64,000 nt of DNA from NCBI RefSeq assembly GCF_003751225.1, contig NZ_RJKE01000001.1, positions 6,572,001-6,636,000 on the forward strand. Reading direction: 5' to 3'. A program made the translations under genes and the position numbers. Source of the DNA: Actinocorallia herbida (GTDB lineage: Bacteria > Actinomycetota > Actinomycetes > Streptosporangiales > Streptosporangiaceae). The notes beneath the pieces were generated by a model. The model saw nothing but the letters and a program-made list of their open reading frames with translations, made no database searches and was not told where the DNA came from. How positions within the stretch are numbered: the first letter of the stretch is position 1; the number at the start of each line of letters is the position of its first letter. Of the stretch, positions 26,526-28,880 are shown piece by piece.

Positions 26526-26567
26526 GTTGCAGAATACAACTGACTGAAGATGGTTGTACTCTACAAC
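26526..26567. promoter_or_regulatory. Twin MarR-type operator in divergent promoter
   Basis: Site 1 is GTTGCAGAATACAAC (26526-26540, one mismatch in the dyad). Site 2 is GTTGTACTCTACAAC (26553-26567), a perfect inverted repeat that extends to 26552-26568. Centres are 27 bp apart. Site 2 ends one base before the marR ATG and contains its candidate -10 (TACTCT). Confidence 0.75.
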
Positions 26568-26568
26568 C

Positions 26569-27009
26569 ATGACGCGACCAGACCCGACACCGGACGACGC
26601 CGTGGAGATCATCGAGCGGGAGATGACCGCGTTCGCGCGGCGGGCGCGGGCCGCCGCGGCCTGGATGCACCCCGAGCTGTCCCTCGTGTCGTTCACGCTG
26701 CTGTCACGGCTGGAGGACCGCGACGGGTCCCGGGTGGTGGACCTCGCCGCGCACTACCGGCTGGACAAGTCCACGGTGAGCCGCCAGGTCGCGGCGCTGG
26801 AGCGCGACGGGCTGATCGAGCGGCGCCCGGATCCGGGCGATCATCGGGCCCAGGTGCTGCATCTCACGGCGGCGGGCCGCCGCGCCCTGGCGGGGGCGTC
26901 GGCGCGGCGGCACGAGCTGTTCGCGGAGCGGCTGGCGGACTGGCCGGCGGAGGATCTGGCGCGGTTCGCCGACTACGTGGTGGCGTTCAACGCGCGGGCG
27001 CGTGACTAG
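26569..27009 (+). CDS. MarR family transcriptional regulator
   Basis: A 146-aa winged-helix repressor. The recognition region is VVDLAAHYRLDKSTVSRQVAALERDGLIERRPDPGDHR (wing with the DxR motif, given here in parts: helix LDKSTVSRQVAAL, wing RRPDPGDHR). Dimer helices occupy both ends. ATG 26569 has TACTCT 6 nt upstream, inside operator site 2, which argues for autorepression of a leaderless message. The divergent membrane protein is the probable target. The ligand is unknown. The stop codon overlaps that of the convergent RNA-repair-like gene through a shared CTAG. Confidence 0.9.
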   Translation: MTRPDPTPDDAVEIIEREMTAFARRARAAAAWMHPELSLVSFTLLSRLEDRDGSRVVDLAAHYRLDKSTVSRQVAALERDGLIERRPDPGDHRAQVLHLTAAGRRALAGASARRHELFAERLADWPAEDLARFADYVVAFNARARD

Positions 27010-28076
27010 AAGTCGCCGTCGGCGGCCTGCAGGACGGTGAGGCCGAGGGCGCGCCACATGGCGACGACCTTGTCGCGGTCGTCGATGACGCCCCCGGCGG
27101 GGCCGTGCGCGGGCAGGACGCGCCGCTGGTAGAGCTCGGACTTGATGATCTCGTCGGGCCGGTGGTCGCCGTCGGCGCGCATGAGGAGGTCGAGCCCGGG
27201 GACGCCGATGTGGTGGGCGATCCAGGCCGAGGTGGCGGCGCGGGCGCGTTCGCCGCGGCCGGACAGGTAGACGATGGGGTGGCCGGAGGCCGCGAGGGCG
27301 CGGACGACGGCGATGACGGGCCGGTTGGGCAGGTCGGTGCCGACGAGGGTCATGTCGTAGGGCGAGCGGGGCCGTTCCATGCCCTGGTCGCGCAGCGCGA
27401 CGGTGCCGTCGAGGTCGACGAGCCAAGGAGCGGCGCCGGGTGGGGGCGGCGGGGCGTAGTGGGCGGCGCGGACGGTGTGCAGCCAGGCTTCGGCGGCCTC
27501 GGTGTCCGGGGCGTCGGGCAGGGGGCTGCGGGCGGCGGCGAAGCGCTCGCCGAACGCGCGGATCTTCTCGGGGTCGGGGAGGGCGACGGTCAGGTGCCCG
27601 GTCCGGTACAGCTCCAGGCCCTGGTGGAGGAGGCGGGCGAGGTGGCGGGCGGCCTTGGCGGTGCGGGTGCCGCTCTTGCCCGACTCGGCGCGGTGGATCT
27701 GGGCGGTGGCGTAGCCGAGGTAGGCGTCGCGGACGCGGCCCGCCGACAGGAGGCCGCCGCGCAGGGCGATGAGGGCGTCACCGAGGGGGGTGCGGACCTC
27801 GTAGAGGTGGTCGGGCAGCCACAGCAGCTCGGTGGCCGTGGGGTTGACGCCCAGGGCGAGTCCCGCGTACTTGGCGGCCTCGTGCAGGGTGGCGTCGTCG
27901 CCGTCGGGGCCTCCGGTGACGTGGGAGGCACGCCGTCCGGTGGGCGGGTTGAGGCCGTGGAAGGCCGAGGTGGGGGCGGCGTAGACGCCGAGCCGGTCGG
28001 TGTCGGAGGCCGGGGTGGCCAGGCCGTAGGCGGTGGAGCCGACGATGCCGGACAGCAGGACGGTGCCGGGGTTCAC
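27006..28076 (-). CDS. RNA-repair-like fusion: RlaP-type nucleotidyltransferase + Pnkp-type HAD 3'-phosphatase
   Basis: A 356-aa fusion. Residues about 1-200 match predicted nucleotidyltransferases of the RNA-ligase-associated (RlaP) group: the pol-beta signature has GS at 13-14 and acidic residues D25 and D27, followed by a NPTATELLWLPDHLYEVRTP segment typical of that family. Residues about 218-356 match the phosphatase domain of T4-type polynucleotide kinase-phosphatase: DLDGT (221-225), SGR (272-274), a Lys near 312, IDDR (331-334) and the ending MWRALGLTVLQAADGDF. No kinase or ligase domain is attached and no ligase gene is adjacent. Start GTG 28076 has GGAG upstream. Acting on RNA ends is inference from the families. 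Confidence 0.82.
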   Translation of the reverse strand: MNPGTVLLSGIVGSTAYGLATPASDTDRLGVYAAPTSAFHGLNPPTGRRASHVTGGPDGDDATLHEAAKYAGLALGVNPTATELLWLPDHLYEVRTPLGDALIALRGGLLSAGRVRDAYLGYATAQIHRAESGKSGTRTAKAARHLARLLHQGLELYRTGHLTVALPDPEKIRAFGERFAAARSPLPDAPDTEAAEAWLHTVRAAHYAPPPPPGAAPWLVDLDGTVALRDQGMERPRSPYDMTLVGTDLPNRPVIAVVRALAASGHPIVYLSGRGERARAATSAWIAHHIGVPGLDLLMRADGDHRPDEIIKSELYQRRVLPAHGPAGGVIDDRDKVVAMWRALGLTVLQAADGDF

Positions 28077-28180: not shown

Positions 28181-28759
28181 TCAGAAGGCGGCGGCGGGCG
28201 GCGGGCCGGACGGCAGGTCGGGGCCCTTCCCGCGCAGGCCGCGCAGCCGGAACGAGGTGATGATCAGGGCGATGCCGGCGAGGATCGAGAACAGGCCGAT
28301 GATCCAGATGAGGGCGAGGCCGCCCTGGCCGGGCCAGATGAGCAGCAGCAGGCCGAACAGGACCGAGACGATCCCGCCGACGATGTACCACCATTCGCCG
28401 TCGATCTTGCGGCGCAGCCAGATCCCGGTGATGATCTCGAAGACGCCGGTGATGATGGCCCAGCAGGCGATGACGAGCAGCAGCACGAACACGGTGATGC
28501 CGGGCCAGAACAGGGCGATGAGCCCGGCGAGGATGCTGAGGACGCCGGTGAACGCGAGCCAGCCGCGCGACTGCCCCGGCACGCCCTTGATGGCGTGGTA
28601 GACGGCGGCGATGCCGTCGACGAGGGCGTAGGCGCCGAAGAGGATGGCCAGGGCGATGACGGTGATGCCGGGCCACACCCAGGCGATGATCCCGAACAGG
28701 ACGGCGATGATGCCGCGCAGGAGCACGAGCCACCAGTGGCGGGCGATTTCCTCGATCAT
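28181..28759 (-). CDS. HdeD/DUF308-like membrane protein
   Basis: A 192-aa protein with six transmembrane spans in three similar pairs. The repeated motif W-P-G-I-T/Q (VWPGITVIALAILFG, FWPGITVFVLLLVIA, IWPGQGGLALIWIIG) is the hallmark of the HdeD/DUF308 family, linked to acid resistance in Escherichia coli but of uncertain function elsewhere. A Gly/Pro-rich tail follows. ATG 28759 has GGGAGGGA upstream. It is transcribed alone, about 100 nt downstream of the RNA-repair-like gene's start. Confidence 0.88.
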   Translation of the reverse strand: MIEEIARHWWLVLLRGIIAVLFGIIAWVWPGITVIALAILFGAYALVDGIAAVYHAIKGVPGQSRGWLAFTGVLSILAGLIALFWPGITVFVLLLVIACWAIITGVFEIITGIWLRRKIDGEWWYIVGGIVSVLFGLLLLIWPGQGGLALIWIIGLFSILAGIALIITSFRLRGLRGKGPDLPSGPPPAAAF

Positions 28760-28880
28760 CGCGGGTCCCTCCCGATCTTGGGCGTTTCTCCTGGGATGCC
28801 CGCGGGACGCCCCAAGGCAATCGGGCGAGGCGGCCAAGACGCGGCAAACCAGGCAGGGCACCGCGCGCCGGGAAGACGGC

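Follow-up and report, generated by a model that had tools for sequence, protein, structure and literature searches.

The window analyzed here is a stretch of 64,000 nucleotides from the Actinocorallia herbida contig NZ_RJKE01000001.1 (positions 6,572,001 to 6,636,000). On its minus strand lies a gene that joins an RlaP-type nucleotidyltransferase to a PNKP-type 3'-phosphatase in one reading frame, which opens with a GTG codon at 28076, closes with a stop at 27006-27008 and contains no internal stop codon. The gene and its parts are as follows:

27006..28076, minus strand: fused RlaP-type nucleotidyltransferase and HAD_PNKP 3'-phosphatase gene, 356 aa
28084..28087, minus strand: GGAG, recognized by eye as a likely ribosome-binding site, 7 nt ahead of the GTG
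27462..28064, minus strand: RlaP domain with helical tail, residues 5-205 (Pfam match to residues 5-161; structure model)
28035..28040, minus strand: pol-beta motif GS, residues 13-14, invariant in 54 aligned sequences
27996..28004, minus strand: catalytic DxD motif, with D27 invariant and D25 kept in at least 90% of the 54 aligned sequences
27879..27896, minus strand: D61, a probable third catalytic aspartate, with H65-E66, all invariant in the 54 aligned sequences
27426..27461, minus strand: linker rich in proline, residues 206-217, seen in the sequence
27009..27425, minus strand: HAD_PNKP 3'-phosphatase domain, residues 218-356 (Pfam; alignment to T4 Pnkp)

A fusion of this kind had been proposed in a first-pass annotation made from the sequence alone, and both halves score above the Pfam cut-offs. 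The N-terminal half matches RlaP (PF10127; E = 8.7e-16, residues 5-161, 58.8 bits against a cut-off of 23), which answers the annotation's own question of whether residues 1-200 belong to a nucleotidyltransferase family, and in PHROGs it matches the nucleotidyltransferase phrog_388 (1.5e-29). The GS pair, D25, D27 and the NPTATELLW segment (residues 78-86) lie where the annotation had placed them, as do the DLDGT, SGR, IDDR and terminal VLQAADGDF motifs of the other half. All 19 columns that are invariant across the 54 aligned sequences, among them G13, S14, D27, D61, H65, E66, N78, P79, R106, H145 and R148, are kept in the nucleotidyltransferase half. As modeled, residues 1-211 adopt the pol-beta nucleotidyltransferase fold, with a mean predicted local distance difference test score (pLDDT) of 90.9; the full-length model was poor (mean pLDDT 61) and was left unused. 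The best VIA-align structural match of this half is HalB (9dbh), at 10% identity and with resemblance only at the level of the fold. CCA-adding enzymes are not among the structural matches, and families unseen there, the CCA-adding enzymes included, stay in consideration. Template-free nucleotidyl transfer to RNA is a published prediction for RlaP.

The C-terminal half matches HAD_PNKP (PF25109; E = 1.3e-38, residues 218-356, 132.8 bits against a cut-off of 27.6), the polynucleotide kinase family phrog_505 (1.4e-37) and the T4 Pnkp chains 1ltq and 5uj0 (1e-16 and 2.8e-16). Its residues D221, D223, R237, R274, D308 and D333 align with D165, D167, R176, R213, D254 and D278 of T4 Pnkp, which we take to be active-site residues, and S272, K312 and D332 likewise align with residues that presumably belong to the T4 active site. 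The catalytic residues checked in this alignment are intact, and the C-terminal half is accordingly a predicted 3'-phosphatase. No P-loop 5'-kinase domain was matched in the gene by Pfam or profile searches, and the fused protein has no match in NCBIfam or PADLOC. It is not a Pnkp, as it is without the kinase, and it does not appear to belong to the sets in which RlaP occurs with a ligase.

Some match to the fused protein occurs in 277 of the 341 genomes of the family. Full-length single-frame matches were recovered from 5 of the 345 genomes of the order, which belong to three genera (A. herbida itself, G264, G303, G282 and G057), and in a phylum-wide sample of 396 genomes the full-length fusion was seen only in A. 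herbida. The four other copies align collinearly with the window protein at 63-66% identity, which rules out the frameshift artefact that the first-pass annotation had considered. Among G264, G303 and G282 the ratio of nonsynonymous to synonymous substitution rates (dN/dS) is 0.07-0.11, low enough to rule out a chance joining of two open reading frames; between these three and G057 it is 0.26-0.38. For the window copy against the other fused copies dN is 0.29-0.31 and dS, near saturation, is 0.64-1.13, so that the resulting ratio of 0.25-0.5 is to be taken at face value only. A sixth copy, in G292 (L069, L173 and L312), is borne by a provirus, has a longer linker and is split over two frames. 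Six of 50,697 phage records cover 80% of the query in one place, all of them annotated as separate genes, and of the 18 matching records among 72,556 from plasmids none reaches that coverage. The fused phosphatases group with free-standing kinase-less rather than with kinase-bearing ones, although this split is weak (75/84).

The separate phage genes place the fusion in a wider context. A first scan of viral sequences gave 25 RlaP loci, and in the 25 whole viral records HAD_PNKP was found in 13, the ligase family PF09511 in 4, RtcB in 1 (the record from A. herbida's own genome) and PF09414 above its cut-off in none. The four PF09511-positive records all carry a kinase-bearing phosphatase. In a fifth kinase-bearing record (L172) PF09511 found nothing where a home-made profile found a ligase at 2e-54 (L311), showing that PF09511 can miss real ligases. 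Eight kinase-less records among the 25 searched whole yielded no ligase by PF09511, RtcB or PF09414.

A second scan gave 70 viral loci, 69 of them with RlaP; in none of the 70 do RlaP and phosphatase share one frame. These loci were then extended by as much as 10 kb in either direction, many being cut by contig ends, and searched with home-made profiles. Wherever RlaP accompanies a kinase-bearing phosphatase a Rnl1-type ligase is present (31 of 31 loci, weakest match 1e-7), and where the phosphatase is kinase-less a ligase was detected in 0 of 17 loci, by ligase and kinase profiles that had been extended with first-round matches from the same loci and whose reach toward very different ligases is uncertain. 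In 12 of these 17 the phosphatase lies at most 1.5 kb from RlaP. The remaining 22 loci include one phosphatase without RlaP (L361) and one locus with a ligase (L363). Clustered at 80% identity, the loci form 14 kinase-bearing and 16 kinase-less clusters without mixing (Fisher 6.9e-9); at 60% there are 3 versus 4 clusters, one of them mixed, and the test loses its meaning. The independence of these cases therefore rests on the 80% clusters and on the RlaP tree (65 rows, 15 near-copies dropped beforehand, bootstrap not fully settled). On its well-supported branches this tree requires the kinase label to change at least 4 times and the kinase-less label at least 5 times; a single inherited accident therefore does not explain why kinase-less phosphatase and ligase exclude each other.

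In the kinase-less phage pairs either gene may come first, and their phosphatases extend from close relatives of PF25109 (1.9e-52) as far as a distant subtype (1.7e-15). No third gene family is common to at least 4 of 11 kinase-less viral loci, as called by a crude gene caller that found the phosphatase in 8 and RlaP in 6 of the 11 and could have missed a partner. As far as the profiles detect them, phosphatase and RlaP stay together in the kinase-less class while kinase and ligase are absent together, and by its domain content the window gene represents this class in fused form.

Bacterial loci also carry these genes in several combinations. Rnl1-type RNA ligase, RlaP and kinase-phosphatase stand in a row in G017, G212 and G074 (L070, L071 and L072; the L070 ligase matches PF09511 at 4.6e-11), and five further loci (L093, L094, L096, L097 and L101), one of them in the window's genus (G001), combine ligase and kinase-phosphatase without RlaP. 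A ligase lies in the same block in all eight kinase-bearing phosphatase loci fetched from the family; the bacterial loci were picked from search matches, not at random, with one profile set built from the loci themselves and the other search using single L070 sequences as queries. The Rnl1-type ligase of L094 (5119-7329, G003) appears by eye to contain an intein-like insert within its active-site motif, and the profile matches only the part after the insert. A kinase-less phosphatase directly precedes RlaP on two bacterial contigs, L095 (7861-9080, G327) and L050 (4590-6097, Micromonospora okii); the RlaP of L095 is only distantly related (1e-11), so this pairing may have a separate origin. 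HAD_PNKP genes in loci without detected kinase, ligase or RlaP (L051-L063 and L186-L203) come mostly from Proteobacterial genomes and viral contigs. We considered free-standing phosphatases as remnants of fusions and set the idea aside, as no nucleotidyltransferase was recognized upstream of them by eye, no search having been made.

We propose that the fused protein may be a two-step enzyme that rebuilds RNA 3' ends. Its C-terminal HAD domain would strip the 3'-phosphate left by a metal-independent ribonuclease, and possibly also open a 2',3'-cyclic phosphate. The freed 3'-OH would then be handed to the N-terminal RlaP domain, whose template-free activity would extend it by one or more nucleotides. 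In contrast to T4-type repair, this scheme would involve neither a 5'-kinase nor a sealing step, and its natural targets would thus be RNAs that have lost their true 3' end rather than nicked RNAs. The sequences show both domains with intact motifs, a fusion conserved among relatives, and a class in which kinase and ligase both go undetected; we infer the activity, the order of the steps, RNA and in particular tRNA as substrate, and the lack of sealing in the cell. We hold this proposal tentatively, rating its chances at slightly under even. The first-pass annotation had already suggested phosphate removal followed by nucleotide addition; that idea is strengthened by the recurrence of the pair in phages as two adjacent genes without detected kinase or ligase, while the activity, RNA as substrate and the RNA marking that the annotation also raised are predictions. 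In a wider form, the proposal would describe a ligase-free and kinase-free strategy in which a phosphatase and a template-free nucleotidyltransferase, encoded by two adjacent genes in actinophages and fused in some hosts, restore the 3' ends of RNAs, probably the acceptor ends of tRNAs, once ribonucleases have attacked them, in place of rejoining broken RNAs. The window gene would then be a phage module of two genes that has become fused and resides in the host. We think this wider form less likely than not.

Several observations weigh against 3'-end rebuilding as proposed. The viral records are mostly fragments, and PF09511 is, as the ligase of L172 and L311 shows, too insensitive to prove that a ligase is absent. 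The position of T4 R176, an arginine in the window protein and its four fused relatives, is K or G in 6 of 10 aligned kinase-less phage phosphatases, whose activity may thus not be the same as that of the window protein. The window copy lacks two segments (7 and 19 aa, 26 in all) that are present in all four relatives, and it is more diverged than the other fused copies (dN about 0.3, a long branch). For the nucleotidyltransferase half, Foldseek places the aminoglycoside nucleotidyltransferase 6un8 first (6.8e-5) and HalB sixth (2.5e-4). Of the 11 kinase-less viral pairs just 1 has a tRNA gene within its 6-kb locus, and there are no tRNA genes in the window. Finally, the genome encodes another RlaP beside RtcB, a close paralogue that shares 69% identity over residues 4-180. 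RtcB joins a 3'-phosphate to a 5'-OH, a chemistry that disfavors a dephosphorylated 3' end and makes this neighborhood hard to reconcile with extension by RlaP.

The block around this paralogue (L064, 6771-10276, G000:C1; the same as L161) holds RtcB, RlaP, a 185-aa gene and a 303-aa gene in a row, and lies within the IMG/VR record IMGVR_UViG_2784132147_000002, listed as viral (predicted provirus). The 303-aa gene reads like a metallophosphoesterase; Pfam gave nothing for it or for the 185-aa gene.

The alternative that survives best holds that the fusion prepares broken RNA ends, which a ligase encoded elsewhere, of the PF09414 type or RtcB, then seals. According to the relevant part of PMC7824862, which cites Burroughs and Aravind 2016, the predicted role of RlaP is to replace nucleotides missing from RNA ends before ligation, and in jumbo phages its distribution is said there to mirror that of RNA ligases. 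Such a partnership fits the loci L070, L071 and L072, where ligase, RlaP and kinase-phosphatase form a block, and likewise the RtcB beside the RlaP paralogue and the ligase missed by PF09511. Of 30 chosen genomes, 4 have a PF09511 match (the three with the operon and G306), all 30 have RtcB and 26 have PF09414 above its cut-off. The six fusion genomes, the broken G292 included, were searched for ligases with these three models only; PF09511 was found in none of them, PF09414 above its cut-off in 5 and RtcB in 6, so that a ligase could act in trans. A. herbida itself has two RtcB genes and one PF09414 gene above the cut-off. The first-pass description of the gene as an orphan calls for qualification: no kinase and no ligase gene was recognized beside it in a 19-kb stretch, and elsewhere the genome has the second RlaP, the two RtcB genes and the PF09414 gene. 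Against sealing in trans, the 17 kinase-less viral loci have no detected ligase within 10 kb, nor do the 8 whole kinase-less records; PF09414 also matches the Escherichia coli and Bacillus subtilis controls and thus does not single out RNA ligases. Moreover, a Rnl-type ligase cannot seal a 5'-OH without a kinase. We consider sealing by a ligase in trans unlikely, though well worth keeping in view. In G303 a PF09414 ligase-like gene adjoins a gene that reads by eye as an HD domain plus P-loop kinase (L112, 6480-8376).

A second alternative is that the protein cleans and fills DNA 3' ends, the phosphatase unblocking a break with a 3'-phosphate and the pol-beta fold adding a nucleotide. Mammalian PNKP and Pol beta do this in base-excision repair, and PNKP-type phosphatases act on DNA as well. 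Pfam names RlaP an "RNA repair pathway DNA polymerase beta family", and the nearest fold, HalB, comes from a system that makes DNA oligomers, as described in part of PMC12657230. RlaP, however, is found next to RNA ligases, to RtcB and, in some phages, to arrays of tRNA genes, and we regard a role on DNA as improbable.

We are equally doubtful that a HalB-like nucleotidyltransferase makes short oligomers as signals or decoys in phage-host conflict, with the phosphatase trimming their ends. The VIA-align result and the carriage of these genes by phages and proviruses favor it, but the likeness to HalB does not go beyond the fold, PADLOC is silent, and the gene calls, crude as they were, revealed no recurrent third family in the kinase-less loci. 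Least probable of all is that two enzymes were tethered by chance and the window copy is losing function: its missing segments and long branch, the broken G292 copy and the many free-standing phosphatases without RlaP would agree with decay, but the frame is open, the catalytic residues are kept, the nucleotidyltransferase half is confidently modeled and dN/dS is low in the three relatives.

Returning to 3'-end rebuilding, our best guess for its target would be the tRNA acceptor end. In RlaP viral loci (about 12 kb) tRNA genes occur in 10 of 25, 113 genes in all, with 25-36 in each of three loci; phosphatase-only viral loci have them in 0 of 18 but, coming mostly from other hosts, are not a matched control. 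Thus tRNA is a plausible target of the RlaP family, and for the kinase-less class it is a guess. That tRNA genes mark the kinase-less class is not supported, with their presence at 1 of 11 loci. In three phage pieces (L182, L183 and L185) a kinase-phosphatase, RlaP and a phosphoesterase-like gene surround 25-36 tRNA genes, with a ligase present in the same record.

The genes that flank the fusion are the following, labeled as in the first-pass annotation, without a family search:

26554..27009, plus strand: MarR-like regulator, convergent with the fused gene
28181..28861, minus strand: HdeD-like membrane protein, upstream of the fused gene

The MarR-like gene overlaps the fused gene by 4 bp at the latter's stop. 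The first-pass annotation had offered both neighbors as context, to which we give no weight: neither clustered (at 1e-8) with any gene of the 42 other loci compared, and no counterpart was seen beside the other fused genes. Inferring a function from them is ruled out by the same observation. When the MarR-like gene was sought in 21 genomes, two of the same genus had no clear counterpart (best 2.6e-13 and 6.8e-10), and an empty site is therefore not demonstrable.

Both domain families are tied to RNA repair, as the first-pass annotation had said, and they and a separate role for RlaP have already been predicted in print. In the open-licence literature we found no report of the fusion or of a ligase-free phosphatase-RlaP pair, and no experiment on any RlaP protein. 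Many RlaP proteins occur among the actinobacterial and phage sequences searched, and a single protein that combines unblocking and extending steps makes the predicted nucleotide-restoring function directly testable. Should it work without a ligase, RNA repair would gain a branch that rebuilds the end beside the one that heals and seals, and ribonucleases acting on the 3' ends of RNA would be indicated as the source of the damage. RNA repair that dispenses in this way with the usual kinase and ligase would be out of the ordinary.

The fused protein resembles several known systems. With the RlaP family it shares the domain and the GS and DxD motifs; that family is described as working alongside RNA ligases, whereas here it is joined to a kinase-less phosphatase with no ligase alongside. 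With HalB of Hailong (9dbh) the likeness is one of fold, and HalB serves a defense signal; we know of no phosphatase partner of HalB. Closer in organization are the Streptomyces phages GiJojo (genes 105-107) and LuckySocke (114-116), in which an RlaP-like nucleotidyltransferase lies one small gene from a PNKP-type phosphatase protein. There the genes are separate, and the partner, of about 298 aa, is a polynucleotide kinase by annotation only; neither phage was among the best 25 of the 975 phage records matched in the ligase search. T4-type repair heals both ends and then seals them, and in the Pnkp1-Rnl-Hen1 complex a PNKP-type phosphatase heals the 3' end, which is then altered before sealing, as the pertinent sections of PMC4411300 describe. 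Healing of the 3' end by such a phosphatase is what T4 Pnkp-Rnl1 and Pnkp1-Rnl-Hen1 have in common with the proposed enzyme, but both seal the break with a kinase and a ligase, neither of which was found beside the fused gene. The phosphatase of T4 Pnkp (PseT; 1ltq, 5uj0) has the same HAD_PNKP domain and the same active-site residues as the fused protein, which carries a nucleotidyltransferase in the place of the T4 kinase domain.
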